Shown in pieces: positions 24,168 to 41,065 of a DNA stretch of 64,000 bases. The DNA lies in the NCBI RefSeq assembly GCF_000427965.1, contig NZ_ATZA01000018.1, positions 1-64,000 on the forward strand. Reading direction: 5' to 3'. Below the pieces are notes generated by a model. That model saw nothing but the letters and a program-made list of their open reading frames with translations, was not told the origin of the DNA and did not search any database. How positions within the stretch are numbered: position 1 is the stretch's first letter; the number at the start of each line of letters is the position of its first letter. Position numbers and translations under genes: made by a program. Source of the stretch: Olivibacter sitiensis DSM 17696 (GTDB lineage Bacteria > Bacteroidota > Bacteroidia > Sphingobacteriales > Sphingobacteriaceae).

Positions 24168-24358
24168 CATAGGTTGTCGTTAGGTCAACTCTACCTTGAT
24201 ACACCGTTAAAACTATGTTGATAGATCAAGCTATCCCTAATTTGATGAGAATCAGATAGGGAATAATCTATAGTGCTAGTGCGATTGAGGTTCGAGAGCG
24301 ATGGGAAAGATGGCGTATGCCTGTTCTTTTGCATCCTTATTGTCGTATCTTTGCATCC

Positions 24359-25729
24359 ATGTCTATTGGAATAGAAAACGATACGATAGTAGCCTTGGCT
24401 ACGCCACCGGGCAGTGGTGCCATAGGCGTCATACGCCTTTCCGGGCCAGAGGCCATCGCGATATGCAATCAGGTTTTTAAGGGCAAGGACCTCGCTCAAC
24501 AGCCCTCACATACCATTCATTTTGGCACTATCCGCGATGGGGATGAAATCATCGACGAGGTATTGGTCAGTCTGTTCATCGCCCCGCACAGCTATACCAA
24601 AGAGGACGTAGTGGAAGTCTCCACGCACGGCTCCAATTATATCATCGAGCGTATCATCAAGCTGTTTATCAAGCATGGCGCACGCGGGGCCAAAGCAGGC
24701 GAATTTACCCTGCGTGCTTTCCTGAATGGCGCCATGGACCTATCGCAGGCCGAAGCAGTAGCCGACCTGATCGCTTCCAACTCTGCCGCATCCCATCAAG
24801 TGGCCATGCAGCAGATGCGCGGTGGATTTTCCAACGAACTGAAGCAATTACGGGAGCAGCTCATCCATTTTGCGTCCATGATAGAACTGGAACTGGATTT
24901 TTCCGAAGAGGACGTGGAATTTGCCAATCGCGCGCAACTGAAAGAATTGGTATTGCAGATAGACAGGGTGCTGCAAAAGCTCATTGCTTCCTTTGAGCAA
25001 GGCAATGTACTGAAAAATGGCGTACCCGTGGTCATCGCCGGAAAACCCAACGTGGGCAAATCTACCTTGCTTAATGCCTTGCTCAACGAGGAAAGGGCCA
25101 TCGTGTCCGATATCGCCGGTACCACGAGGGATTCTATTGAGGATGAAATCAATATCAAAGGGGTTACCTTTAGGTTTATAGACACGGCAGGCATACGCGA
25201 TACCTTGGACATCATTGAGGCCAAGGGGGTGGAACGTACGCGCGAAAAGATGAGGCAGGCCCGGTTAATCATCTACCTGGTAGATCCTACACAGGACAAT
25301 GTGGAGGAAGTGGCCCAGCAGGTGGCGGAACTCAAAGATTTGCAGATTCCTTATCTGCTCATCGTCAATAAAAAGGATCAATTGCAAGCGGAACAAAAAG
25401 CTGGTTATGAAACTTTGGAGCCTCTGTTCATAGCTGCCAGGGAAAAGGAAGGGGTGGAGGAGCTACAGGAAGAACTGTTGGCCCTCGTCAACCTGCGAAA
25501 TATCAATGCCGATGATGTATTGGTGACCAATATCCGCCATGTAGAAGCCTTGCAAAAGACACAGGCTTCATTGGAAAACGTACTTTATGGCGTAGACCAT
25601 CCCGTCACTTCCGATTTCTTGGCCATGGATATCCGGCAGGCCTTGCACCATCTGGGAGAAATTACGGGGAGCGTCTCTACGGATGACTTATTGGAGAATA
25701 TATTCTCGAAGTTTTGCATCGGGAAGTAG
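24359..25729 (+). CDS. mnmE: tRNA uridine-5-carboxymethylaminomethyl modification GTPase
   Basis: A 456-residue MnmE. The N-terminal folate-binding domain begins IVALATPPGSGAIGVIRLSG; the G domain has P-loop GKPNVGKST at residues 228-236 and the DTAGIR switch; the C terminus is the invariant FCIGK at 452-456. With MnmG it modifies the wobble uridine of certain tRNAs. A TATCTTTG box at 24346-24353 ends 5 bases before the ATG, so the mRNA may be nearly leaderless. The gene's 3' end is the apparent attachment site of the mobile element that follows, and the reading frame remains intact. Confidence 0.95.
   Translation: MSIGIENDTIVALATPPGSGAIGVIRLSGPEAIAICNQVFKGKDLAQQPSHTIHFGTIRDGDEIIDEVLVSLFIAPHSYTKEDVVEVSTHGSNYIIERIIKLFIKHGARGAKAGEFTLRAFLNGAMDLSQAEAVADLIASNSAASHQVAMQQMRGGFSNELKQLREQLIHFASMIELELDFSEEDVEFANRAQLKELVLQIDRVLQKLIASFEQGNVLKNGVPVVIAGKPNVGKSTLLNALLNEERAIVSDIAGTTRDSIEDEINIKGVTFRFIDTAGIRDTLDIIEAKGVERTREKMRQARLIIYLVDPTQDNVEEVAQQVAELKDLQIPYLLIVNKKDQLQAEQKAGYETLEPLFIAAREKEGVEELQEELLALVNLRNINADDVLVTNIRHVEALQKTQASLENVLYGVDHPVTSDFLAMDIRQALHHLGEITGSVSTDDLLENIFSKFCIGK
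25712..25721 (+). repeat. candidate attL inside the mnmE 3' end
   Basis: TTTTGCATCG lies within the codons for the conserved FCIGK terminus. The same 10-mer recurs at 42756-42765, just past the last cargo gene. The 3' end of mnmE (trmE/thdF) is the known target of Salmonella genomic island 1. Here the integrase gene begins about 180 bases downstream. Confidence 0.4.
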
Positions 25730-25850
25730 GTTTTGATAATCATCAATTGCAATCCATAGAAATATATGATTTAATAAACTAAAAATCAATTTATTGTATA
25801 AATATCATTTCTTTTTGTTTTTCATTGACTAACCTTTATTTTGTATCTTT

Positions 25851-25896
25851 TTGTACCTTTGTTGGGATGTTTTAACGGAGGTACAAATAGGTACAA
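25851..25896. promoter_or_regulatory. TTGTACCT/AGGTACAA repeats in front of the integrase
   Basis: TTGTACCT at 25851-25858 faces two direct copies of its complement AGGTACAA at 25879-25886 and 25889-25896, the last ending 4 bases before the integrase ATG. A TACCTTTG box (25854-25861) overlaps the first. The layout fits an autoregulatory operator or integrase arm-type binding sites. Confidence 0.45.
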
Positions 25897-25900
25897 GATT

Positions 25901-27028
25901 ATGGAACGAACCCGATCAGTCAAATTACGAGAGAAAGAATTAAGCGATGGGCGGTTAAGCCTTTACTTGGATTACTACCCGCCTGTTTATATCCCCGAGA
26001 CGGGTAAGGAATCCAGACGGGAGTTCCTGAAGATCTATATCCATAAAAAACCCGCCAACGCTGCGGAAAAGGAGTACAATAAAGTTTGCCGGGCTAAGGC
26101 CGAAAGCATCCGGTCGGAACGCGAACTCCAATTGATTAATCGGCAATTTGATTTTGCCGACAGGTTAAACGCGCAGCGTGATTTTCTTGCCTATTTTAAA
26201 GAACAGGTTAGAAAGCACAACAAGTCGAAAGGTAATCACGACAATTGGTATGGTACGTATAAATACCTCGAAATGTACACGAACGGTCAGTGTACGTTTG
26301 GCGACGTAACCGAGAAATTCTGCGAGGGTTTCAAAGAATTTTTGGGATCAGTCAAATCCATTCGGTCTAATACCGTTGGCCTTTCCGCCAATACCCAATA
26401 CAGCTACTTCAATAAATTCCGTGCGGCCATCAAGGAAGCGTTTCAGGAACGGCTTTTTTCCGTTAATCCCATATTGCGCGTTAAAGGACTGCCACAAGGC
26501 GAGACACATCGGGAGTTTTTGACATTGGAGGAATTGCGGGCGATGAAGGAGGCGGAATGTGATTTGCCCATTCTGAAACAGGCATCGCTTTTTTCCGCAC
26601 TTACGGGATTGCGATGGTCGGACATCATCAATTTAAAATGGGGCGATATCCACCATTCTGCCGAACATGGGTATTACATCCGTTTCGTACAGCAAAAGAC
26701 CAAAGGTGCAGAAACACTATACATACCCGATCAGGCGTACGAACAATTAGGTGAAAAGCAGCGTGCCGAAGAGCAGGTTTTTAAAGGGCTTAAGTATTCG
26801 GATTACATCAGTTTGCAGATTTCCCGATGGGCACTGCGTGCCGGAATAACCAAGAAACTGACGTTCCACTGTTTCCGACACACCTATGCGACGTTGCAGC
26901 TAACCATGGGTACGGATATTTATACGGTGTCCAAACTTTTAGGGCACCGGAACGTGAAAACCACGGAAATTTACACCAAGGTCATTGACGAAAAGAAAAT
27001 TGAAGCCGCAAGACGCATTATACTTTAG
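25901..27028 (+). CDS. tyrosine recombinase (integrase) of the mobile element
   Basis: A 375-residue site-specific recombinase. The N-terminal part is an Arm/SAM-like DNA-binding region; the catalytic domain has R238 (ALTGLRWSD), H323xxR326 (HCFRH), H349 (LLGHR) and the nucleophile Y358 (TTEIYTK). All catalytic residues are present. It catalyses integration and excision of the element at the mnmE 3' end. The ATG at 25901 is chosen because the earlier in-frame start at 25841 runs through the repeat-rich promoter region. It is transcribed away from mnmE, into the element. Confidence 0.92.
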   Translation: MERTRSVKLREKELSDGRLSLYLDYYPPVYIPETGKESRREFLKIYIHKKPANAAEKEYNKVCRAKAESIRSERELQLINRQFDFADRLNAQRDFLAYFKEQVRKHNKSKGNHDNWYGTYKYLEMYTNGQCTFGDVTEKFCEGFKEFLGSVKSIRSNTVGLSANTQYSYFNKFRAAIKEAFQERLFSVNPILRVKGLPQGETHREFLTLEELRAMKEAECDLPILKQASLFSALTGLRWSDIINLKWGDIHHSAEHGYYIRFVQQKTKGAETLYIPDQAYEQLGEKQRAEEQVFKGLKYSDYISLQISRWALRAGITKKLTFHCFRHTYATLQLTMGTDIYTVSKLLGHRNVKTTEIYTKVIDEKKIEAARRIIL

Positions 27029-27031
27029 GCA

Positions 27032-28024
27032 ATGGGAATACTTAAACGGAATCCAAACAAGACACTCAGCCCCGAAATGGGATATTGGAAATACCTGCTG
27101 TTTGAGTATTTTGGAGCCTATGACGATGGTAGTCTTGAAACGCGGCTGAAAGCATTGCAAGTTGGCTGGATGATTTTTAGCAGAGAAGGGAAAGCAGCTT
27201 ATGAATTTGTCGAATTTCATAAAAACAAACGTCGCGTATTGGGTGATGTGCTGAAATATTTATATGTCATTGTCGGTTTAGGCGGTTTTATCCTGTTGCT
27301 TTATGTATTTAGCGCACCTTTTTTCTTTGCCCTGCTGGCTTTCGTGCCACCAATAATAATCCATCTTTTGGCGTATAAGCCCAGGTTAAAACAAAATCTA
27401 CGGCACGTTACGCATATTCTTGAAAATAGTCAGCGATTTACACAACTCATCAATTTGCCAATTGACGATGAGAACGGACTCCGAGCGTTCATCGAATCGT
27501 TAAGAGCAGGAAACAAGGATGCTGGCGAAAGAAAAAATGACACAGAGGCTCATGAAGCTTTTTCCGATGACCTAATCAGTGATTTTCAATTACAACTTCG
27601 GGAGATCAGCAAGAGGGAGAATCAATTCAATCAAATGCCCATGCGTGAGGTGATTGATTTCTTTAACGTGATGTGTTGCCCGGCATGCAGCAAAGAAGTA
27701 GCGCAAATGTCAGAAGCTGACTTTCTGTTGTTTCTGAGATCAGCATTTCTGCTGCATCCCATGCCGATGAAAATCGTCTTGAAAAATAAAAAGCCCGTCA
27801 TCACAAGAATGATTTTCCATCAGTTTATGCTTGCATCGTATGACAAGCATCATGATAAAAAGGATATACCTAAATACGCAACCCTACTGTGCGATCATTT
27901 TGAAGGTTTCGAGTTCGAAAAGACGATTCGGAATTTTCGGACAGATGATAATCAACTGTTGGAAAGAATAAGAAACGATTACAAAAGCCATTTACAATTT
28001 TTACGGTATCTACAATCTTCATAG
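27032..28024 (+). CDS. two-helix membrane protein of unknown function, on the mobile element
   Basis: A 330-residue protein, not recognised. Two adjacent hydrophobic segments lie at about residues 70-110 (YLYVIVGLGGFILLLYVF and the next helix). A charged cytoplasmic-type C-terminal domain follows, with a short CCPAC motif near residue 215 (possible metal site). It starts 3 bases after the integrase stop, so it is probably co-transcribed with it. Possible roles, all unproven: element maintenance, entry exclusion or defence. Confidence 0.6.
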   Translation: MGILKRNPNKTLSPEMGYWKYLLFEYFGAYDDGSLETRLKALQVGWMIFSREGKAAYEFVEFHKNKRRVLGDVLKYLYVIVGLGGFILLLYVFSAPFFFALLAFVPPIIIHLLAYKPRLKQNLRHVTHILENSQRFTQLINLPIDDENGLRAFIESLRAGNKDAGERKNDTEAHEAFSDDLISDFQLQLREISKRENQFNQMPMREVIDFFNVMCCPACSKEVAQMSEADFLLFLRSAFLLHPMPMKIVLKNKKPVITRMIFHQFMLASYDKHHDKKDIPKYATLLCDHFEGFEFEKTIRNFRTDDNQLLERIRNDYKSHLQFLRYLQSS

Positions 28025-28072
28025 AGAACGCTAAAAATGCTCTTATCATTGCGGGAAACAAGTTTTTACGCA

Positions 28073-28420
28073 ATGGAAAATCCCTTTGTATTATTAGACC
28101 AACGGCTTGATCGGATCGAGACGTTGGTAATGGAAATGAAGAATGGAACCGTTGAAAAGCCGGCTCCGGATGGCTATGATATTATCGATATCGATGAAGC
28201 TACCCAACTTTTAGGCATTGCCAAACCCACCGTTTACGGAAAGACTTCCCGGGGTGAAATCCCCCATATGAAAAGAGGGAAGCGGCTTTATTTTTCCAAG
28301 AAAGAACTCTTGGAGTGGCTGAAGTCCGGGCGAAGGAGAACGCGAGCGGATATCGAGGAGGAAGCCAAAGCTTATATCCTGCGAAAAGGTTCGCCGTTCC
28401 GTGGTAACCCATCTTATTAA
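28073..28420 (+). CDS. excisionase-type helix-turn-helix protein
   Basis: A 115-residue protein with a MerR/Xis-like HTH_17 domain at about residues 40-85 (DEATQLLGIAKPTVYGKTSRG followed by HMKRGKRLYFSKKELLEWLK). An N-terminal leucine-containing coil comes before it. In Bacteroidota integrative elements such proteins sit between integrase and primase genes and act as excision or copy-control factors. The start at 28073 is preferred to 28037, whose extra residues are unlike the family. Confidence 0.8.
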   Translation: MENPFVLLDQRLDRIETLVMEMKNGTVEKPAPDGYDIIDIDEATQLLGIAKPTVYGKTSRGEIPHMKRGKRLYFSKKELLEWLKSGRRRTRADIEEEAKAYILRKGSPFRGNPSY

Positions 28421-28447
28421 ATTTTTTGTTGACTAAATCACTTCGCC

Positions 28448-29671
28448 ATGAAACAGGATAGTGATAACACCTATATCCGCGTAGGTACGACGTTGTATAA
28501 GCGGGTGAAGAAGCCGTTGATCAGCGGTAAAGATGAAGATATGCTGATTGTGTGGAATTTGGATACCATCAAACAGGATTACCCCAACAATTGGCGGGAG
28601 GTTATCAAAGGTATCGACAAATACAATGGCTTCTGTACCATCCCGGAGCATTTGGACTACCGGAGAAGCTACCAAGGTTTCTATAACCTCTATGAACCTG
28701 TGGTACACGAACCCAAAGAGGGTACATATACTACTATTCTCCAATTTATCACCCATATTTTCGGGGAACAGTACGAATTAGGGCTCGATTATTTGCAGCA
28801 TTTGTATACCCAGCCCCGGCAACGTTTGCCCGTGCTGTGTCTGGTAAGCAGCGAGGGGAACACCGGGAAGACAACTTTCCTCAACCTGTTAAAGTCCGTC
28901 TTCGGCAATAACATGACGTTCAATACCAATGCCGATTTCCGGAGCAATTTCAACGCCGACTGGGTATCCAAATTGATTATCGCGATTGACGAAGTGTTGC
29001 TCGACAGGAGGGAAGACAGCGAGAAAATAAAAAACCTCAGTACCGCCAAATCCTACAAGGCAGAAGCCAAGGGCAAAGACCGTTTCGAGGTGGAATTTTT
29101 CGGCAAAATCATCCTGTGTTCCAACAATGAGGAAAACTTCATGGTCATCGGTTTGCAGGAAACCCGCTATTGGGTAAGGAAAGTACCCACATTACCATCG
29201 CTTGATCCGGATTTCCTCTGGAAACTTGAAGCAGAGATACCGGCATTTCTCGATTTTCTGCTTCACCGGAAACTGGCCACTAAAAACAGTTCCCGCATGT
29301 GGTTCACGCCGGAGCAGATTGCTACATCTGCCTTACGGAAGGTGAAGTCATATTATGTGAATAAGGTGGAATTGGAACTCTACGAGACCATCCGCGAAAT
29401 CATGGAGGCAAAGGAGGTGTTGGACTTTTGCCTGACCAATACCCACGCCAAGATCCTGTTGGAGCGATCAGGTATCAAGGTATCCCGTTCGCAGGTGCGC
29501 CACATCTTGGAAGACCAATGGCGTTTGAAGCAATACCCCAACGCGTCCACCTTTACCACGTATCTGTATGACCACAGCGGCTACCTATTGGAACTGGACG
29601 GCAAGGGCAGGTATTACCGGATTACCCAACAGGACTTGGAACGCATTTATAGTGGAATGTTGACTTTTTAA
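28448..29671 (+). CDS. VirE/D5-like primase-helicase of the mobile element
   Basis: A 407-residue SF3-like ATPase. Walker A is SEGNTGKT at residues 135-142, Walker B LIIAIDEV at 176-183, and sensor-like ILCSNNE near residue 226. The C-terminal winged-helix part is around 330-400. Such proteins unwind DNA for replication of integrative and mobilizable elements. It is followed directly by an array of GTCAAC/GTTGAC motifs that is a plausible origin; one more GTTGAC lies just before the gene (28429-28434). Confidence 0.8.
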   Translation: MKQDSDNTYIRVGTTLYKRVKKPLISGKDEDMLIVWNLDTIKQDYPNNWREVIKGIDKYNGFCTIPEHLDYRRSYQGFYNLYEPVVHEPKEGTYTTILQFITHIFGEQYELGLDYLQHLYTQPRQRLPVLCLVSSEGNTGKTTFLNLLKSVFGNNMTFNTNADFRSNFNADWVSKLIIAIDEVLLDRREDSEKIKNLSTAKSYKAEAKGKDRFEVEFFGKIILCSNNEENFMVIGLQETRYWVRKVPTLPSLDPDFLWKLEAEIPAFLDFLLHRKLATKNSSRMWFTPEQIATSALRKVKSYYVNKVELELYETIREIMEAKEVLDFCLTNTHAKILLERSGIKVSRSQVRHILEDQWRLKQYPNASTFTTYLYDHSGYLLELDGKGRYYRITQQDLERIYSGMLTF

Positions 29672-29847
29672 AGTAAGGTGTTAATAATGAGTTTTTTGAT
29701 AAGTCAACATTTGGTCAACAAATGGTCAACAATCAACAATAAAGTTGATAGGCTGTCAACAATCGAATCCAAATGTTGACCGGAAAGTTGATGGAAAGTT
29801 GACCGGTTAAACGGCAATAAAACAATGGCTTATGGTGAAAAGTCAAC
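29659..29847. repeat. GTCAAC/GTTGAC iteron array, candidate replication origin
   Basis: GTCAAC occurs at 29703, 29714 and 29725 (exact 11-base spacing) and again at 29755. The complementary GTTGAC/GTTGAT occurs at 29744, 29775, 29787 and 29798 (12- and 11-base spacing among the last three). Outliers lie at 29659 (inside the end of the primase gene) and 29842. Two oppositely oriented, helically phased triplets around a centre near 29750 suggest cooperative binding by an element-encoded replication protein. Confidence 0.6.
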
Positions 29848-29869
29848 ATAGCAACATTTTTAAGGTTCA

Positions 29870-29902
29870 CTTTTGCTGTCTTTTTTCTTTAGCCAGCAAA
29901 AG
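29870..29902. repeat. inverted repeat upstream of the oriT-like hairpin
   Basis: The perfect 9-bp arms CTTTTGCTG (29870-29878) and CAGCAAAAG (29894-29902) are separated by 15 pyrimidine-rich bases. The repeat lies between the iteron array and the larger hairpin at 29951, in the non-coding replication/mobilization region. Confidence 0.5.
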
Positions 29903-29950
29903 GAAAAATACGATAACAAACCCGTATATGGAGAGGGTAGGTCGCATGTG

Positions 29951-29992
29951 CGAAGCAAGCCATGTTTCCGTCAGACGGAAACGCTTGCTTCG
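29951..29992. other. candidate oriT hairpin
   Basis: A 42-base inverted repeat: outer arms CGAAGCAAGC (29951-29960) and GCTTGCTTCG (29983-29992), inner arms GTTTCCGT (29964-29971) and ACGGAAAC (29975-29982), with a cag loop and a cat bulge on one side only. It is 46 bases upstream of mobC and close to the relaxase gene, the usual place for the oriT inverted repeat of MOBP-type elements. The nick site is not identifiable by eye. Confidence 0.55.
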
Positions 29993-30038
29993 GCGTATTT
30001 ACCACTTCGTTTGTACGTATATCCAACTATAGCTATAT

Positions 30039-30371
30039 ATGGCAAGACCGACTAAAGAGAGAAAAGACCAGCGGTACATCCGTGTCACCGTGCGGCTTAC
30101 GGAAGCGGAATCCGCGCAATTGGAAAAGCTTTCTGCCTATGCGGGCCTGCAAGCTTCGGAGGTAATCCGCGAGGCCGTATTTAAGAATAGGATACTACAA
30201 GCCAAAGTGCCGGTGCTGGATCAGCAAACATACGTGGAGTTGAAGCGCATCGGCAACAACATTAATCAGATTGCTAAGCACCTGAATTCCGGACAGGATG
30301 TTGGTGCCAAGGTGTATTTGGAAACAATTGAAAAGCAGTTATCCATCATCCTAAAAAAACTCATCCAATGA
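30039..30371 (+). CDS. MobC-type relaxosome accessory protein
   Basis: A 110-residue protein. The N-terminal ribbon-helix-helix-like part (VTVRLTEAESAQLEKLSAYAG, residues about 16-36) and the C-terminal segment RIGNNINQIAKHLN (about 70-83) are the hallmark of MobC-type relaxosome proteins. It would bind oriT and help the relaxase nick. Its stop overlaps the relaxase ATG by 4 bases (ATGA), so the two are translationally coupled. Confidence 0.85.
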   Translation: MARPTKERKDQRYIRVTVRLTEAESAQLEKLSAYAGLQASEVIREAVFKNRILQAKVPVLDQQTYVELKRIGNNINQIAKHLNSGQDVGAKVYLETIEKQLSIILKKLIQ

Positions 30372-31570
30372 TTGCCAAACAATCCATCGGTAAATCGTTC
30401 ATGGGCGCGTTGCATTACAACCTGCGGAAGGTGTTCAGCAGAAATGAGGAAGAACGAGCAGAATTGTTGGAAACCAATTTTTCCACGCTTGACAACAGCA
30501 CCGTTAAAAAGGAATTGGAGATCATGCGCTTGCGGAATCCACATTTGCAACGGAATACCTATCATGCCAGCTTGAACTTTTCCGATAAGGAGCAAATCAG
30601 CAACAAAACGATGCTGTCCATTGCCAAAGAATATATGGAACGGATGGGATTCGATGACAACCTGTATTGCATCTTCCGGCATCACGATACTTCGCATCCA
30701 CATTGTCATATTTTGGCGTTGCGCAATCGCTTTGATGGCAAAGTGGTGAGCGACAGCAACAATTATCAGCGCAGTGAGAAAATTGTCCGCGAGCTGGAAA
30801 ATAAATACGGACTGATAGAAGTTATCGATAGCAAACAATCGAAACACAAGGCTCCGACCAAGGACGAAATCGAAATGGCGCTCCGTACCGGAAGCCCCTC
30901 AATGAAAATGCTGCTACAGGAAAAAGTGGCGGCGGCCATCGAATCATCAAAGGACATGGGCGATTTTATCGGCACGCTCCGTAAGGACGGCATCGACCTA
31001 TTGTTCAACCAAGCCCGCACCGGGCGGGTTTCCGGCATCACCTATTTCATGGATGGTTTCATGGTGACAGGTCGATCATTGGGGCAACAATTTAAATGGA
31101 GTTCACTATTAAAGGAGATTTACTATGAGCAAGCTCAACATGGCGAGGCAATTGGCCAAGCAAACGACCGGACAAAAGCAAAATACGGAGAAAGAGCAAC
31201 GGGAACAACCGCTGACCATCGACAAGGCTTTGGCGGAAATGTTCACCATGATACTGGAAAATCAAAAGGTGTTGAACCGATTTCAGCACGACATAGCGAG
31301 CGTCATCAACAAGCGACTTCCAAATTCAGCAGCGACGGATCAGCGACTGGCGAAGATAGAGACGACACTTTTGGAGATTACCCGCGCAATGCCGGAATAC
31401 AACAAGCAGCAACGGAAAACGAGAAATCTTTTGATGGCGATATTTTTCCTGAGCACGATACCATTTCTCGCACTGGTAGCAGCTCTTGGTTTGATGGCTT
31501 GGCTATCGAGATAACACCCGACGAAGATGACGAGCGGCTCAAGCGAAAGAAGCGGGGATTAGGACGGTAA
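30368..31570 (+). CDS. MOBP-type relaxase (mobilization nuclease)
   Basis: A 400-residue relaxase. The N-terminal half is the catalytic domain: candidate nucleophile Y17 (ALHYNLRK) and the metal-binding cluster HHDTSHPHCHI at residues 105-115. It would nick oriT and pilot the strand during conjugative transfer using machinery from another element, as no type IV secretion genes are present here. From about residue 253 on, the sequence is low-complexity and polar, and this stretch is overlapped in another frame by a second ORF (31125-31514) with better protein-like features. Confidence 0.85.
   Translation: MIAKQSIGKSFMGALHYNLRKVFSRNEEERAELLETNFSTLDNSTVKKELEIMRLRNPHLQRNTYHASLNFSDKEQISNKTMLSIAKEYMERMGFDDNLYCIFRHHDTSHPHCHILALRNRFDGKVVSDSNNYQRSEKIVRELENKYGLIEVIDSKQSKHKAPTKDEIEMALRTGSPSMKMLLQEKVAAAIESSKDMGDFIGTLRKDGIDLLFNQARTGRVSGITYFMDGFMVTGRSLGQQFKWSSLLKEIYYEQAQHGEAIGQANDRTKAKYGERATGTTADHRQGFGGNVHHDTGKSKGVEPISARHSERHQQATSKFSSDGSATGEDRDDTFGDYPRNAGIQQAATENEKSFDGDIFPEHDTISRTGSSSWFDGLAIEITPDEDDERLKRKKRGLGR
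31125..31514 (+). CDS. membrane-anchored mobilization protein nested within the relaxase gene
   Basis: A 129-residue frame lying wholly inside the relaxase gene in a different frame. It has a strong Shine-Dalgarno AAAGGAG at 31111-31117, 7 bases before its ATG. The protein has a polar N terminus, a predicted helical/coiled middle (ENQKVLNRFQHDIASVINK), and one clear transmembrane helix near the C terminus (LLMAIFFLSTIPFLALVAAL). The arrangement recalls RSF1010 MobB and ColE1 MbeB, small membrane-associated mobilization proteins encoded inside their relaxase genes. Homology to them is not claimed. Confidence 0.65.
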   Translation: MSKLNMARQLAKQTTGQKQNTEKEQREQPLTIDKALAEMFTMILENQKVLNRFQHDIASVINKRLPNSAATDQRLAKIETTLLEITRAMPEYNKQQRKTRNLLMAIFFLSTIPFLALVAALGLMAWLSR

Positions 31571-33357: not shown

Positions 33358-36153
33358 ATGAATATTAATAACCCCTTTAAAATATTGTCTCCCAACGAAA
33401 GGTGGGCACCGACACAAAGCCAAATGGATGCTTTTCAAAACGCCTATGAAAAGCTGTTACCGCCATTGGTTTATAAAATCAGGCTTGCAGTTGCTAAATG
33501 GCGTGACGAAAATTATGCAGGTGCATCCGACACGACAAAATCACTTTTGAATTTTTGGTTTAATCAAGAGCATTTAATCGGGCAGACAAAATTCAGTTTT
33601 TTCTTTTCACAACGTGAAGCCATTGAATCAATCGTTTATCTGTATGAAATAGCCAACGCAAAAGACAAATACGAATTGATGAAGTTTGATTTATCAGGTC
33701 GTATCAGCACGGGTATGTTTGACGAAAACTGGACTCGTTACGTGGTAAAAATGGCAACAGGTGCGGGTAAGACGAAAGTGATGGGCTTGACTTTGGTTTG
33801 GTCTTATTTCCACAAACTCTATGAAGCCGACAGCACTCTCTCAAAAGATTTTTTGGTGATTGCTCCAAACATCATCGTTTTAAATCGTTTGAGAAAAGAT
33901 TTTGATGGACATAAAATGTTTTTTGACGAGCCTTTTATTCCTGACAATGGATTTGACAATAAAGACTGGAAAAACGATTTTCAATTAACGCTTCATATTC
34001 AAGATGACTTAAAACCTATAACAGAATCTGGAAACATTTTCCTGACCAACATTCATCGAGTATTTTTCAATGAAGAACCTGAACAGAGTTTTGAAACAAC
34101 TTTCTTAGGCGTAAAACCAAAACCTGACGCAGACACATCAAAAGGCTTAGACCTTGGTAAAATTCTGAGAAGCGATAAAATCAAAAATCTCGTTGTGCTG
34201 AACGACGAAGCCCATCACATTCACGATAGTTCATTGGCCTGGTTCAAAAGCATTGAAGACATCAACAATAAAATCAAACTGAAAACCGGCAACGGAATCA
34301 GTTTACAAGCAGACTACACCGCAACACCAAGACATAACAACGGAGCCATTTTCGTTCAAACCATTTGTGATTATCCGTTAGTAGAAGCCATAAAACACAA
34401 TGTTGTTAAATCGCCTGTTTTGCCTGACGAAACATCAAGGCAAAAAATTCAGGAAAAAGACAGCAACGATTTTGTTGAACGATACCGTGACTACATTCAT
34501 TTGGGCTATTTGGAATGGGAACAGCAGTATGAAGAACTGAAAAATCACAAAACACCAATTCTGTTCATTATGACGATGAACACCAAAGAAGCAGACCAAG
34601 CCGCAGCTTTTTTGGAAGCCAATTACCCGAAAATGAAAAATTCGGTGCTGACTATTCACACCAATAGTTCAGGTGAAATTGCATCCGATAAAAAGAACCT
34701 GACAAAAAAAGACAAAGAAGAATTAGACAAATTACGCAAAGCAGCGGACGATATTGACAAAGACTATTCGCCTTACAAAGCCGTTGTGTCGGTTTTGATG
34801 CTTCGTGAAGGTTGGGATGTTAGAAACGTTTCAACCATTGTCGGACTACGCCCTTATGGTGCGGATTCTAAAATACTTCCCGAACAGACTATTGGTCGTG
34901 GTTTAAGAAAAATGTTCTCTCTCGACACACCCGAAAAATTGGTGATTGTTGGAACACCTAAGTTTTTGGAGTTTGTCGAAGAACTGAAAACCGAAGGCGT
35001 TGAATTCCAATACAGCCCAATGGGTAAAGGTACAAAAGGAAAATCGCCTGTTATTGTTGAAGTGGACAAGGAAAATCACGACAAGGATTTAGATAAACTG
35101 GATATTCCGATTCCACAAATGAGTCCGAGAATTTATCGTGAGTTCAAGAATTTGGAATTCATTGACGTAAGTAGACTCAAAAACGAAAAAGTTCCCCTTA
35201 AAAAATTCAGTTCGGACGAATTGCAAGAAATTGTATTCAATGATATTGAAGGCAACCTTTCTCACAAAACAGTTTTTAAAGACACAGTTCCCGACTATCG
35301 AAATGTAATTGGCTTTTTCACTTCTTCTATTTTAAAAGACAGCCGATTGGTTAGCGGCTTTAATATTCTTTATCCGAAAGTTGAAAGCTTTATCAAGTAT
35401 CAGCTTTTTACCAATGAAGTTGAATTGAGCAACCCGCAGACATTAAGAAATCTTTCCGAAGTAAAGCCAAAGGAAGTTTTACGAACCACGTTCAAAAAGG
35501 CAATTGATGAACTAACCGTAACCGATAAGGGAACAGCAGAAGTAAAAAACTATATTTCGCTAAAACTAACCAAACCAAAGGTTGCCGAAAACCAACCTTT
35601 CCTTGTTCCTAAAAAATCGGTATTCAACAAAATCATTGGCGACAATCCGTTTGAACTGGAAGTAGCATCATTTCTTGAAAGTCGTTTTTCAGATGTAATT
35701 GCCTATGCCAAAAACACAATGGGCGAAGGCGGTATCAACTTCAAAATTGAATATCAGGCTCAAGACGGAAACATTCGGGAATATTTTCCTGACTTCTTTG
35801 TAAAAACTGGAACGAGCACTTTTTACATTCTTGAAACCAAAGGCAGAGAAGATTTAGACGATTGGCTAAAAATTAAACGATTGACAACTTGGTGTAAAGA
35901 CATCAACAATGCGCAAAGCGAATACACATACAATCCTGTGTATGTAAAGCAGGAAAAATGGGATGAGGTAAAGAACAATCTGAAATCATTCCAAGACCTT
36001 GTTTCTATATTTTTTATTAAAGACTTCCGCAAAAAACTTTCTAAGGAAGACGCTATTCAACTCATCAAAAAGGGTGCAGACGTATCAAACTTTGGCGACC
36101 CTGTGGAATGGCAGAAGAAAGACAGAGCGGAGCGTAAAATCAATGGGCTATGA
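33358..36153 (+). CDS. Type III restriction enzyme, Res subunit (helicase-nuclease)
   Basis: A 931-residue protein. SF2 helicase motifs: Walker A ATGAGKT at residues 133-139, NDEAHH (DEAH box) near 282-287, and QTIGRGLRK (motif VI) near 511. The C-terminal PD-(D/E)xK nuclease has YFPDFF near 812 and LETKGRE near 826. It moves on DNA after recognition by Mod and cuts near unmodified sites. The stop overlaps the next gene's ATG (ATGA). Visibly more AT-rich than the mobilization genes before it. Confidence 0.92.
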   Translation: MNINNPFKILSPNERWAPTQSQMDAFQNAYEKLLPPLVYKIRLAVAKWRDENYAGASDTTKSLLNFWFNQEHLIGQTKFSFFFSQREAIESIVYLYEIANAKDKYELMKFDLSGRISTGMFDENWTRYVVKMATGAGKTKVMGLTLVWSYFHKLYEADSTLSKDFLVIAPNIIVLNRLRKDFDGHKMFFDEPFIPDNGFDNKDWKNDFQLTLHIQDDLKPITESGNIFLTNIHRVFFNEEPEQSFETTFLGVKPKPDADTSKGLDLGKILRSDKIKNLVVLNDEAHHIHDSSLAWFKSIEDINNKIKLKTGNGISLQADYTATPRHNNGAIFVQTICDYPLVEAIKHNVVKSPVLPDETSRQKIQEKDSNDFVERYRDYIHLGYLEWEQQYEELKNHKTPILFIMTMNTKEADQAAAFLEANYPKMKNSVLTIHTNSSGEIASDKKNLTKKDKEELDKLRKAADDIDKDYSPYKAVVSVLMLREGWDVRNVSTIVGLRPYGADSKILPEQTIGRGLRKMFSLDTPEKLVIVGTPKFLEFVEELKTEGVEFQYSPMGKGTKGKSPVIVEVDKENHDKDLDKLDIPIPQMSPRIYREFKNLEFIDVSRLKNEKVPLKKFSSDELQEIVFNDIEGNLSHKTVFKDTVPDYRNVIGFFTSSILKDSRLVSGFNILYPKVESFIKYQLFTNEVELSNPQTLRNLSEVKPKEVLRTTFKKAIDELTVTDKGTAEVKNYISLKLTKPKVAENQPFLVPKKSVFNKIIGDNPFELEVASFLESRFSDVIAYAKNTMGEGGINFKIEYQAQDGNIREYFPDFFVKTGTSTFYILETKGREDLDDWLKIKRLTTWCKDINNAQSEYTYNPVYVKQEKWDEVKNNLKSFQDLVSIFFIKDFRKKLSKEDAIQLIKKGADVSNFGDPVEWQKKDRAERKINGL

Positions 36154-36518
36154 GATTAATAGATAGCAACATATTGATTTACGCTGCAAAGCCAGAATTT
36201 CCGCAATTAAAGGAATTGTTGGGAGAAGAAGATTTGGCTGTTTCTGAATTAACCAAACTTGAAGTATTGGGGTATCACGGTTTAACTGAGGAAGCCGAAG
36301 AATACTTCAAAGCCGTATTTTCATTGGTTACCATTTTGCCAATTACAAGTGAAGTAATTGATAGAGCTACTGAACTAAAGCAGCAAAGAAATATGAAATC
36401 GGCTGATGCGATAATTGCCGCAACAGCATTATTGTATTGCACAGAAATAATTACAAGGAACACAGGCGACTTTGACCACATTCCTGGTTTAACAGTAAAC
36501 AATCCAATTGACAATTGA
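36150..36518 (+). CDS. PIN-domain nuclease embedded between res and mod
   Basis: A 122-residue VapC-like PIN protein with all four acidic positions present: D5 (RLIDSNIL), E38 (TKLEVLG), D86 (KSADAIIAAT) and D107 (TGDFDHI). PIN proteins are Mg-dependent RNases, usually VapC toxins. No VapB-like antitoxin frame is seen beside it. Its start overlaps the res stop by 4 bases and its stop overlaps the mod start by 4 bases, so it is an integral member of the operon. Confidence 0.85.
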   Translation: MRLIDSNILIYAAKPEFPQLKELLGEEDLAVSELTKLEVLGYHGLTEEAEEYFKAVFSLVTILPITSEVIDRATELKQQRNMKSADAIIAATALLYCTEIITRNTGDFDHIPGLTVNNPIDN

Positions 36519-38596
36519 TGAGTTTGAACGATACAGATAAAGACCGAATCATTGAACTGATAAAGGCAGGTGAAAAACTGCCAAAGGAATTCATTTACAA
36601 ACTTTTTGCAGATGAAGAAGATGTATTTCTTTTCTGGAACGGAAGAAAAGAAGATGTTACCAATGTAGCCCTGCCCTTTCACAGCATTGAGCATATAGAC
36701 GAGCCACGCAAAGAAGAAAAGAAGCAAGGCGATATGTATGAAATGTTTGACACCCGAGGGCGACAACTCAAAGGCTGGACAAACAAATTGATTTGGGGCG
36801 ATAATAAATTGATACTTTCTTCATTGGCAAATGGCCCTATTCGTGATGAAATAGAAAAAGAAGGCGGTTTAAAACTCATTTACATCGACCCACCTTTTGC
36901 CGTAGGTGCTGACTTTGGTTTTGAAATTGAAATTGGCGGAGAAAAAGCAGAAAAGAAACAAAGTATTATTGAAGAGATTGCATACCGTGATACTTGGGGG
37001 AAGGGCATTTCTTCTTATTTGACTATGATGTATGAACGGCTGAAATTGATGCACAATTTATTGGCGGAGGATGGAAGTATTTATGTGCATTGTGATTGGA
37101 GGGTAAGTTCATATCTACGGTTATTATTGGACGATATATTCGGAGCAGAAAATTTCAGAAATGAAATTTATTGGTATTACTACAATAAGATGCCCGATAC
37201 TAGAAAAGGAGTTTTCCCAAGAGCAACTGATACGATTTTTTGGTATGTAAAAGATAAATCTAACTACACTTTTACGCCAATTGAAGAAAAGCGAGATAAT
37301 CCAGTCAAGCAACTGGTAAGAAAAAAAGTTGATGGTAAAATGATTAATGCAAGAGATGAGTCAGGTAATGTAATGTATCAAATGAGAGATGCAAGAGTTG
37401 TCGACAATGTATGGCGGCTTTCAATGCTTCAGCCAGCTGATGATACTGAAAATTTAAACTATCCCACCCAAAAGCCTGAAACCGTTCTTGAACGTGTTAT
37501 TTCAGCAACAACAAACGAAGGCGATTTAATTGCCGATTTTTTCTGTGGCAGCGGCACTACAGCAGCAGTGGCAGAAAAACTGAACAGAAAATGGATTACA
37601 ACAGACCTTGGCCGGTTTTCAATCCATACAGCACGTAAGCGTTTAATTGGTGTGCAAAGAGAACTACAGGCAAGTGGTAAAGATTTCAGAGCCTTTGAGA
37701 TTCTCAACTTAGGCAAGTATGAAAGGCAGTTTTTTATGGACGACCTTACCAACGGCAAACGCAAAGCCAAAGAAGATTTGTATGTGGATTTGATTTTGGA
37801 AGCCTACAAAGCCAAGAGAATTGACGGACATAGTGCATTGCACGGTCAAAAATCAGGCAGGTTTGTGCACGTTGGTCCTTTAGACGTTCCGGTTACACAA
37901 AGCCGATTGATGGATATTTTTGAAGAGTGCCGTAAAAATCTTTATACGCAGGTTGATGTTTTGGGCTTTGAGTTCGAAATGGGCTTAACGCCCCAGTTCA
38001 TTCAGGAGCTGAAAGAGAAAGGCGTTTCCATTACTTTAAAATACATACCCAAAGATGTGTTCGACAAACGAGCCGTTGAGAAAGGACAAGTAAAATTTTT
38101 TGATGTAGCTTACCTGAACACAAAAGAGAAAATAAAAGACAAGTCTATCACTATCGAATTGACCGACTTTGTCACCCACTACACCCAAGACGACATAGAA
38201 GAATTGCAACAGTCAATGAGGGCAGGCAGCAAGGTGGTGATTGAAGATGGGCAGATTATCAAAGTAGAAAAAGATAAAAACGGAATCATTACCAAAACCA
38301 TCCTCACCAAAGATTGGCACGACTGGATTGACTATTGGGCAATTGACTTCAATTACGAAGACAAAAAGGAAATCATCAAAATCAAAAACGAATCAGGCGA
38401 AACCGAAGAACAATGGACGGGCAACTACCTGTTTGAAAACGAGTGGCAGAGCTTCCGCACCAAGAAAAATCCAACGCTTGAATTTACAAGCATTGCCTAC
38501 GAATACAAGAAAGCGGGCAAATACAAAGTGATGGTGAAAGTGGTTGATATTTTAGGAATTGATACGAGTAAGATTATTGAAGTGCATATCAAATGA
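36515..38596 (+). CDS. Type III modification methyltransferase, Mod subunit
   Basis: A 693-residue adenine-N6 methyltransferase of the beta class: catalytic motif IV YIDPPF at about residues 123-128 comes before the SAM-binding motif I DFFCGSGTT near 341. The stretch between them (NEIYWYYYNKMPDTRKG onward) should hold the target-recognition domain. The C-terminal part is long and ends in a PKD-like beta segment (YKVMVKVVDILGIDTSKIIEVHI). It both marks host DNA and gives Res its specificity. The stop overlaps the next gene's ATG by 4 bases. Confidence 0.92.
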   Translation: MMSLNDTDKDRIIELIKAGEKLPKEFIYKLFADEEDVFLFWNGRKEDVTNVALPFHSIEHIDEPRKEEKKQGDMYEMFDTRGRQLKGWTNKLIWGDNKLILSSLANGPIRDEIEKEGGLKLIYIDPPFAVGADFGFEIEIGGEKAEKKQSIIEEIAYRDTWGKGISSYLTMMYERLKLMHNLLAEDGSIYVHCDWRVSSYLRLLLDDIFGAENFRNEIYWYYYNKMPDTRKGVFPRATDTIFWYVKDKSNYTFTPIEEKRDNPVKQLVRKKVDGKMINARDESGNVMYQMRDARVVDNVWRLSMLQPADDTENLNYPTQKPETVLERVISATTNEGDLIADFFCGSGTTAAVAEKLNRKWITTDLGRFSIHTARKRLIGVQRELQASGKDFRAFEILNLGKYERQFFMDDLTNGKRKAKEDLYVDLILEAYKAKRIDGHSALHGQKSGRFVHVGPLDVPVTQSRLMDIFEECRKNLYTQVDVLGFEFEMGLTPQFIQELKEKGVSITLKYIPKDVFDKRAVEKGQVKFFDVAYLNTKEKIKDKSITIELTDFVTHYTQDDIEELQQSMRAGSKVVIEDGQIIKVEKDKNGIITKTILTKDWHDWIDYWAIDFNYEDKKEIIKIKNESGETEEQWTGNYLFENEWQSFRTKKNPTLEFTSIAYEYKKAGKYKVMVKVVDILGIDTSKIIEVHIK

Positions 38597-39642: not shown

Positions 39643-39697
39643 GAGCCAAGGCACAAGCTAAAATGGGGAGGCTTTTGTTTTTAAAAGATGATAATCA

Positions 39698-41065
39698 ATG
39701 CCCGAAACAAACCGCATAGAATACAAAAGAGAGCTCAATATCGATGTGGATATTGAAAAGGAGGTTATAGCCTTTTTGAACTACCATGAGGGCGGTGTGA
39801 TTTATATCGGCATTGACAAGACCGGCAATGTCGTGGGCGTATCGGACGCAGACGGTGATGCGCTCAAAATCAAAGACCGTATCAAAAATAATATATCGCC
39901 ATCGGCCATGGGGTTGTTTGACGTAGTGGTGGAGGAGCGCGAGGGCAAGGAGATTGTAAAAATCACTGTAGCCAGTGGCAGCGAAAAGCCGTACTTCAAG
40001 AAAAAATACGGGATGACCGATAAAGGTTGTTTTATCCGCGTAGGCACAGCTGCGGAGCCAATGCCGCAGGGGATAATTGATAAACTATTCGCTACCCGTA
40101 CCCGGAATTCTATCGGCAAAATCCGGTCGAACCGGCAGGATTTGACTTTTGAGCAGCTTCGCATTTATTACGAAGAAAAGCGGAAGCCGCTCAATAGCCA
40201 ATTCAAGAAAAGTTTGGAGTTGCTCACCGAAGATGGTGCGCTCAATTATGCAGCCTACCTGTTGGCTGATGAAAACGGTGTTTCCATCAAAGTGGCGAAA
40301 TACAGCGGTACGAATCGGGTGGACCTGATTGAAAACAACGAATACGGTTATTGTTCGCTAATAAAAGCTACCAAAAGCGTATTGGATAAAATCGAGTTGG
40401 AAAACCGGACGGCAACGCAGATTACGTCCAAAGAACGGATAGACCGCAGGCTTTGGAATCCGGTGGCCATCCGCGAGGCCGTGATAAATTCGATTGTGCA
40501 TAACGACTTTACCCGTGAGGTGCCACCCAAATTCGAGGTTTTTGCCGACCGTATCGAAATCACTTCGGCAGGCATATTGCCGGAGGGATTGAGCGAAGAA
40601 GATTTTTTCGATGGGGTCTCCATTCCCAGAAATCGAGAGTTGATGCGGGTGTATCGGGATTTGGAATTGGTGGAGCAACTTGGTTCAGGTGTACCTCGAA
40701 TTTTGGAGAGTTATGGAAAAGAATGCTTCCGGTTTATGGGTAATTTTATCAGGATGACATTTCCGGCTTCGGAAACGGTTGCCCCCCAAGTCACCGAACA
40801 AGTCACCGAACAAGTCACCGAACAAGTCACCGAACAAGTGTTGAATTTATTGGCAGTGGCAGACCAAACCGGACGTACAAGTGCAGAATTGATGGCGTTG
40901 GTCGGAATTAAGCATCGTCCTACGTTTCTATACAATTACCTTCAACCCGCAGTTGATAAGGGATTGCTGGAAATGACCATACCCGATAAGCCCAAAAGCA
41001 GCAAACAACGTTATGTATTGACAGCGTTGGGAATGCAGATGGCACAAAAGATTGATAAGGATTAA
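39698..41065 (+). CDS. AlbA_2/Schlafen-domain protein with ATPase-like C-terminal domain
   Basis: A 455-residue protein. The N-terminal AlbA_2 (Schlafen) domain covers about residues 1-120 (ETNRIEYKRE; FLNYHEGGVIYIGID). An ATPase-type RecG-like C-terminal domain (HATPase_c_4) has REAVINSIVHNDF and EQLGSGVPRI. A terminal winged helix lies near 385-450. The linker at about residues 364-379 is four exact VTEQ repeats. Members are annotated as putative transcriptional regulators or defence proteins. It follows the restriction operon, and its base composition is nearer that of the rest of the element. Confidence 0.8.
   Translation: MPETNRIEYKRELNIDVDIEKEVIAFLNYHEGGVIYIGIDKTGNVVGVSDADGDALKIKDRIKNNISPSAMGLFDVVVEEREGKEIVKITVASGSEKPYFKKKYGMTDKGCFIRVGTAAEPMPQGIIDKLFATRTRNSIGKIRSNRQDLTFEQLRIYYEEKRKPLNSQFKKSLELLTEDGALNYAAYLLADENGVSIKVAKYSGTNRVDLIENNEYGYCSLIKATKSVLDKIELENRTATQITSKERIDRRLWNPVAIREAVINSIVHNDFTREVPPKFEVFADRIEITSAGILPEGLSEEDFFDGVSIPRNRELMRVYRDLELVEQLGSGVPRILESYGKECFRFMGNFIRMTFPASETVAPQVTEQVTEQVTEQVTEQVLNLLAVADQTGRTSAELMALVGIKHRPTFLYNYLQPAVDKGLLEMTIPDKPKSSKQRYVLTALGMQMAQKIDKD
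40787..40834 (+). repeat. 12-bp tandem repeat, four exact copies, in the AlbA_2 gene
   Basis: CAAGTCACCGAA is repeated four times without a mismatch, encoding VTEQ units in the linker between the ATPase-like domain and the terminal winged helix. A fifth partial unit (caagt) follows. Copy-number change would alter linker length in steps of four residues while keeping the frame. Confidence 0.9.

Follow-up and report, generated by a model that had tools for sequence, protein, structure and literature searches.

The window, the whole stretch of 64,000 nucleotides that was analyzed, carries a mobile element next to the 3' end of mnmE (24317-25729, a gene identified by eye). The element extends from 25841 to about 41089, and its genes lie in the order tyrosine integrase, 330-aa protein, HTH_17 protein, DUF5906 protein, MobC/NikA-like protein, and relaxase. 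A second reading frame, predicted to encode a small membrane protein, lies inside the relaxase gene. The features are as follows.

25841-27028, forward strand: tyrosine integrase, just 3' of mnmE (PF00589, PF13102)
28448-29671, forward strand: DUF5906 protein, weakly like the C-terminal part of P4-type primase-helicases (TIGR01613, E 1.3e-11, below the cut-off of that family)
29951-29992, no strand assigned: perfect nested inverted repeats I7 and I9 with arms of 10 + 9 nt, a candidate oriT hairpin 46 bases upstream of mobC
30039-30371, forward strand: MobC/NikA-like ribbon-helix-helix relaxosome protein (PF21983, 4.8e-13; PF05713, 1.5e-8)
30368-31570, forward strand: MOBP-type relaxase (profile match to PF03432, E 7.4e-36), its ATG overlapping the mobC stop
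31111-31117, forward strand: AAAGGAG, resembling a Shine-Dalgarno sequence, with 7 bases between it and the nested ATG
31125-31514 (stop included), forward strand: nested +1-frame gene of 129 aa, recognized by conservation and suppressed change at four-fold sites
31127-31567, forward strand: relaxase residues 254-400, predicted disordered from AlphaFold pLDDT, with a K/R-rich C-terminus, host of the nested gene
31428-31502, forward strand: codons of the predicted transmembrane (TM) helix, about residues 102-126 of the nested protein (Kyte-Doolittle 19-residue maximum 2.5)

DNA matching mnmE and DNA matching the mob region occur together in two related genomes (L144 and L146); similarity between L145 and the window resumes at 39697-40874 and from 41089 onward. 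A search for direct repeats flanking the element, made with window positions 25601-25900, gave none of 14 nt, either as exact words or with up to 3 mismatches. The cargo of the element varies; ORFs 33358-36153 and 36515-38596 of the window read, by eye, like a type III restriction-modification pair. In Parapedobacter defluvii (L003/L146), the DNA matching 25804-30741 is missing, which indicates a deletion from the integrase to about relaxase codon 124, and the nested ORF is intact.

Anatomy of the nested reading frame

The nested ORF begins with an ATG at 31125, ends with a stop at 31512-31514, and is read in the +1 frame relative to the 400-aa relaxase; the preliminary description, which reported an ORF nested out of frame in the relaxase gene, was right in its coordinates, frame, length, and start. 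The start lies in relaxase codon 253, 757 nt after the relaxase start. In the AlphaFold model of the relaxase (11 sequences, mean pLDDT 62), the last helix spans residues 244-257, and pLDDT is below 50 at 254-303 and 305-400. The relaxase fold thus ends where the ORF begins, so that the nested ORF fills a disordered tail and spares the catalytic domain. Low-complexity sequence had been noted for the relaxase residues encoded by the same DNA; pLDDT is below 50 almost throughout 254-400. Across the 70 loci with an intact nested ORF described below, R, G, D, and A abound in the relaxase tails, whose final 16 residues carry a net charge of 1 to 10 (median 7).

The predicted nested protein consists of an N-terminal part that is helical, and coiled-coil-like by eye, followed by one strong hydrophobic segment at the C-terminus. 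This segment corresponds to the single clear transmembrane helix predicted earlier. The 'coiled' middle of the earlier account is retained in part: AlphaFold (3 sequences, mean pLDDT 52) gives a helical middle at low confidence, and its coiled character is a judgment by eye.

The Shine-Dalgarno-like site is unusual in the window, since AGGAG or GGAGG occurs at -18 to -4 in only one of its 38 ORFs of at least 200 aa (most upstream ATG of each, uncurated). A strong ribosome-binding site of its own is, however, not a general feature of the nested gene. Among 76 clade relatives an AAAGGAG-type site is found in three, namely the window, L002, and L003, which are close kin, and it therefore lies outside the conserved design of the gene. 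An argument for conservation resting on this site was ruled out on the same count.

Conservation and selection of the overlapping frame

Relatives were gathered by searching 400 genomes of the order with the relaxase, of which 267 matched at E 1e-15; the closest relaxase in the genome collection, from Parapedobacter soli, is 86% identical to that of the window. From among the matches listed, with 12 weaker ones included and G055:C1:2100887 (4 stops) left out, 104 distinct relaxase ORFs were taken, and the clade was defined as the 76 with a phmmer score above 190 (L003 being 5'-truncated). Below this cut-off fall the fragments L095, L098, and L103 (scores 144-154), the plasmid loci, and the sister loci. 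The clade is sampled mostly in one order of Bacteroidota.

The preliminary description had proposed examining homologous relaxase genes for stops in the nested frame. In 70 of the 76 clade relaxases, the frame is open for at least 90 codons (97-144) and ends before the relaxase stop. An ATG stands at the column homologous to the nested start of the window in 73 of the 76, and in 69 of the 70 with intact ORFs; the remaining intact ORF (L038) has ATA at this column and its first start, a TTG, slightly upstream. Further in-frame starts precede the homologous ATG at several clade loci. The start codon is embedded in the relaxase motif Y-[ED]-x-x-R-D, so the N-terminus M-[STN]-K-x-E that the nested proteins of Bacteroidota share with those of plasmids is partly dictated by the relaxase frame; the motif is also present in related form in the ORF-less relaxases L057, L132, L042, L059, and L120. 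All 70 nested proteins contain a 19-residue hydrophobic segment (Kyte-Doolittle at least 1.6) located 0-10 residues from the C-terminus, and K and R are more numerous before this segment than after it in 68 of them.

The six relatives that have no intact ORF comprise four with none at all (L042, L059, L093, and L120) and two in which it is interrupted (L068 and L076), which indicates that the nested gene is dispensable in some elements. The frame stops after 32 codons in L068 and 24 codons in L076, and a TM-bearing ORF reopens downstream in the same frame.

Searching the 400 genomes with the nested protein itself returned two relatives at 86-88% and ten weak matches. Six of the weak matches (L015, L016, L017, L020, L022, and L024) occupy the corresponding position in relaxase genes; the loci of the other four (L018, L019, L021, and L023) yielded no relaxase ORF. 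Of the full set of 70 nested proteins, 37 belong to subgroup A1 and 12 to subgroup A2. A class-wide search with the A1 profile matched at least 4 of 395 genomes, all from the window's own family and including the window's genome, a lower bound because the second subgroup is not part of the profile. The nested protein looks concentrated in this family; the one clade relaxase from another family, L120, is without a nested ORF.

An open frame of this length carries little weight in a single sequence. When the synonymous codons of the window relaxase were resampled in 2000 trials, 82% of the outcomes had a +1 frame that stayed open over 90 codons or more, and 4% had an open frame that also included a TM segment, so the window alone cannot prove a gene. 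Averaged over the 70 intact loci, the chance is 0.165 for an open frame and 0.022 for an open frame with a TM segment. Chance openness of the +1 frame is thus ruled out by the relatives, most of which have kept it, and not by the window. The +2 frame of these loci never stays open for as many as 90 codons; its longest open stretch has a median of 24.5 codons across the 70.

The substitution pattern, which the preliminary description had put forward as a check, was examined in 22 disjoint pairs that cover 44 of the 70 nested loci at identities of 0.62-0.985. Four-fold sites of the relaxase differ at 613 of 1554 positions upstream and, within the stretch shared with the nested ORF, at 64 of 782 (Fisher 1.7e-63, a p-value that overstates independence because the pairs come partly from one subclade). 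The proportion is lower over the ORF in 21 of the 22 pairs, the exception being L016/L017 (2/73 vs 1/24). For the window itself, the upstream and overlap counts are 20/73 and 3/37 against L002, and 11/43 and 1/47 against L003. Substitution rates at the three relaxase codon positions shift from 0.108/0.063/0.332 upstream to 0.221/0.136/0.125 in the overlap, where the fastest position is the third position of the nested codons, as a +1-frame gene predicts. Identity of the nested proteins exceeds that of the relaxases over the same DNA in 19 of the 22 pairs (counted by eye). In six ORF-less control pairs the overall proportion does not fall (126/398 upstream, 60/176 over the last 35%), and the individual pairs go both ways; the ORF-loss pair L042/L059 gives 25/84 upstream and 4/22, with few sites. 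Synonymous change in the host frame is thus reduced and the reduction is limited to the overlap, as in a genuine overlapping gene, and both the suppression and the shift in codon position fit a protein encoded in the +1 frame.

It is extremely improbable that the frame is not a protein gene, and that its features stem from constraint on the relaxase tail or on the nucleic acid (RNA structure or a DNA site) or from chance openness. The non-significant openness of the window (0.82) speaks for this alternative. Against it stand the +1 position pattern that accompanies the four-fold suppression, the absence of an overall drop in ORF-less relaxases, the C-terminal TM segment in every one of the 70 nested proteins, and the short open stretches of the +2 frame. 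The ORF at 31125-31514 is very probably a real, selected overlapping gene, and judging from sequence evolution it is very probably translated.

Nested and tandem membrane-protein genes: one origin or two

Nested ORFs are also present in the relaxase genes of plasmids. The best-covered plasmid matches of the window relaxase include those of Serratia, Plesiomonas, and Chitinibacter, where a gene in the frame used here has its start at an offset of 742 nt in the relaxase gene and carries the annotation 'IncQ-type mobilization protein MobB'. Same-frame nested starts lie at 772 nt in IncQ2 plasmids, 754 nt in a Citrobacter plasmid (from the annotated relaxase start), and 748 nt in IncQ1 plasmids, and an Aeromonas plasmid has a nested ORF with a similar N-terminus. 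The Pfam family PF17511 (Mobilization_B) is matched by the Serratia/Plesiomonas and IncQ1 MobB proteins; the nested proteins of IncQ2 (L138), Citrobacter, and Aeromonas have no match to it at E 0.01. In the IncQ2 plasmids, the 227-aa nested +1 membrane-protein ORF (L138:2573-3253 and L139:2573-3253) is annotated only as hypothetical. Among six cyanobacterial loci, a +1 ORF with a TM segment is found in two and one without a TM segment in Crinalium, and the remaining three have no +1 ORF of 80 aa at this place. Long nested +1 ORFs with a TM segment were observed in the MOBP relaxase genes of a Gloeobacter plasmid (L131:2270-3376; 369 aa, starting at about 769 nt) and a Gloeothece plasmid (L136; 271 aa, 952 nt).

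The agreement with the plasmid mobB-type genes in frame and, approximately, in position suggests common descent, in which an IncQ-type mobB orthologue was already nested in a common relaxase ancestor and then disappeared from some lineages of cyanobacteria and of tandem-gene Bacteroidota. The probability of this history is judged to be only a little short of even. Frame and approximate start agree across the Bacteroidota, IncQ2, Citrobacter, and Serratia/Plesiomonas MOBP relaxases and even the MOBQ relaxase of IncQ1 pDN1, and the TM-bearing ORFs of Gloeobacter and Gloeothece extend the pattern, whereas the three cyanobacterial loci that have no such ORF count against it. At the N-terminus, the clade consensus M-N/S-K-x-E is similar to the sequence of the MOBP-plasmid proteins (the window has N for E, and IncQ1 MobB differs), but this likeness follows in part from Y-E-x-x-R-D in the other frame.

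Profile comparison and phylogeny bear on both histories. HHalign aligned the two Bacteroidota subgroups with each other at a probability of 97. With the MOBP-plasmid proteins, the probability was 20 for the first subgroup, 47 for the second, and 46 for both pooled; it rose to 71 once IncQ1 was added to the plasmid set and was 0.4 for the first subgroup against IncQ1 MobB alone, values that weigh against shared descent. Relaxase trees were built from 73 rows and, for the topology test, from 40 chosen rows that omit Gloeobacter L131 and other long branches. All Bacteroidota, nested and nest-less, group together in the best tree, contrary to shared descent, with a support of 89 that is not significant and with long branches flagged; a tree holding nested Bacteroidota and Pseudomonadota together is not rejected (p-AU 0.45).

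Convergence is a serious candidate as well, if somewhat less than probable. The gene would have arisen by independent overprinting in Bacteroidota, in a relaxase linker that is disordered, poor in +1 stops, and provided with an ATG by its own motif. The resampled openness (82% for the window, a mean of 16.5% over the 70 loci), the position of the ATG within a conserved relaxase motif, the lean of the tree toward a grouping of nested with nest-less Bacteroidota, and the weak or absent profile similarity all favor independent origin; the frame, the approximate start, and the order of helical part and TM segment, all as in IncQ mobB, oppose it. The preliminary description had suggested a convergent counterpart of MobB and MbeB. 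The MobB-like nested layout holds, and the convergence is better stated as one of these two histories.

Sister relaxases of the clade encode membrane proteins in another arrangement. In 11 of 22 nest-less sister loci (L004, L005, L006, L009, L107, L108, L111, L114, L115, L116, and L121), the relaxase gene has directly after it, at -4 to +25 nt, a separate gene whose product is a helical TM protein of 186-263 aa. A large ORF comes next in seven of the others, and four have neither; the one large ORF scanned (L110) matches Bacteroid_MobC, which is a VirD4-like protein. A downstream ORF with a TM score above 1.8 is found at 17 of the 22 sister loci (10 small, 7 large and coupling-protein-like) vs 1 of 69 nested-clade loci. 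No family over cut-off was obtained for the tandem proteins scanned (8 of the 11 in NCBIfam, six in Pfam). These proteins resemble the nested ones in their helical, by eye coiled-coil-like, part, their TM segment, and their place beside the relaxase, and differ in having a gene of their own after the relaxase stop. It thus seems that the relaxase gene either has the gene of a membrane partner as its neighbor or contains it.

A bolder reading, which is rather unlikely as a whole, holds that the membrane partner of Bacteroidota MOBP relaxases has switched between tandem and overprinted states, that tail and docking protein are co-encoded and co-evolving, and that the arrangement arose independently of IncQ mobB, though in an identical frame and site. 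Under this switching, the secretion-signal tail of the relaxase and its docking protein would co-evolve by necessity, since the tail residues are largely dictated by the nested frame, and the end of the relaxase fold would be a repeatable birthplace for overlapping genes.

Proposed role and comparison with known mobilization systems

By analogy with MobB, the nested gene probably encodes a small, C-terminally anchored inner-membrane protein that acts on the relaxase or relaxosome and raises mobilization of the element. Its product would be held in the inner membrane by the C-terminal TM anchor, with the helical N-terminal part in the cytoplasm. There it may bind the relaxosome, the relaxase, or both; its contact on the relaxase would probably be the disordered tail, whose codons overlap the nested gene. 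By keeping the relaxase at the membrane, the nested protein would make it available to a helper element's type IV coupling protein, and the outcome would be more mobilization of the integrative mobilizable element. The transport signals of R1162 MobA reportedly require MobB, according to the title of a 2007 paper by Parker and Meyer. These signals are placed at residues 204-323 and 322-387 in a passage of PMC10025392.

A different role for the nested membrane protein, such as entry exclusion, stability, or defence, in which it merely shares a transcript with the relaxase, is quite improbable. The lack of a convincing family match leaves room for such a role. The best Pfam matches of the nested proteins are DUF2207_C (2.4e-5, 1 of 37) and DUF4368 (2.6e-5, 3 of 37), and the best NCBIfam match is the conjugal transfer protein TraP of IncI1 (2.3e-6, 2 of 12), all unconvincing. 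PF17511 gave no match to the window protein at E up to 1, does not appear in the family listing of the 37 A1 members at E 0.01, and is over cut-off in none of the 400 genomes of the order, the sole scan that covers the 33 nested proteins outside A1; on the profile result, direct membership in PF17511 was rejected. A plasmid search with the nested protein gave no match, and an IMG/VR scan with the relaxase gave no relative. Against an unrelated role, the gene is linked to that of the relaxase at every one of the 70 loci, a TM-protein gene lies beside the relaxase in half of the sister loci, and the IncQ plasmids offer a precedent.

Small overlapping genes are easily missed by annotation, and here a family that has no convincing Pfam match is present in 70 of 76 relaxases. 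Among the matches listed in a full-text literature search, judged by title and opening lines and including few subscription papers, no nested mobB-like gene in Bacteroidota relaxases was found. Nested mobB-type genes are here extended from proteobacterial plasmids to integrated Bacteroidota elements, and a probable membrane-docking component is added to the mobilization machinery of these elements. The nested, tandem, and absent states provide a natural comparison on why relaxase tails carry overlapping genes.

In ColE1, the small mobilization proteins MbeB and MbeD overlap the MOBP-class relaxase gene mbeA. The MbeB and MbeD Pfam families are absent from the matches listed for the window and A1 proteins. 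Overlapping mobA, mobB, and mobC genes are described for MOBP5 plasmids in a passage of PMC3832669, and an HEN motif III for MbeA in one of PMC12857230; in contrast, the window relaxase has H105, H112, and H114, all three invariant in A3, and so differs from MOBP5 relaxases of the HEN type.

The IncQ1 plasmids RSF1010, R1162, and pDN1 provide a closer parallel in layout. An overlap of RSF1010 mobB with mobA is described in a passage of PMC5572225, and in pDN1 mobB spans about MobA codons 250-385. IncQ1 MobB is likewise small, ends in a C-terminal hydrophobic segment, and is encoded within the relaxase gene, in its +1 frame and after the catalytic domain, starting at 748 nt (pDN1 and two other IncQ1 plasmids) vs 757 nt here; in the nested protein of the window the membrane segment is a prediction. 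The differences lie in the host gene and the family. The IncQ1 relaxase is of the MOBQ type (PF03389) and that of the window matches PF03432; pDN1 MobA also matches RepB_primase, forming the relaxase-primase fusion MobA-RepB, whereas no primase family was matched in the 400-aa window relaxase, and PF17511 is matched only on the IncQ1 side. The window-clade proteins end 0-10 residues after the TM core, and the plasmid proteins run on further (by eye).

The IncQ2 plasmids (Enterobacter pHPRU111 and p5MO13m20) and those of Citrobacter, Aeromonas, and Serratia/Plesiomonas/Chitinibacter share PF03432, the frame, the approximate start, the order of helical part and TM segment, and the N-terminus M-[ST]-K-x-E with the window, and differ in that their proteins are longer (166-227 aa) and are carried on plasmids, not chromosomal elements. 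A passage of PMC6856555 places IncQ2 plasmids, pTC-F14 among them, in MOBP14. Four-fold sites of these relaxases show the same tendency as in Bacteroidota, in weaker form: 33/106 upstream, 9/55 over mobB, and 56/121 downstream in the Serratia/Plesiomonas plasmids, and 16/140, 6/129, and 27/168, respectively, in an IncQ2 pair. The nested protein of the window is thus MobB-like in layout and, by analogy, probably in function too.
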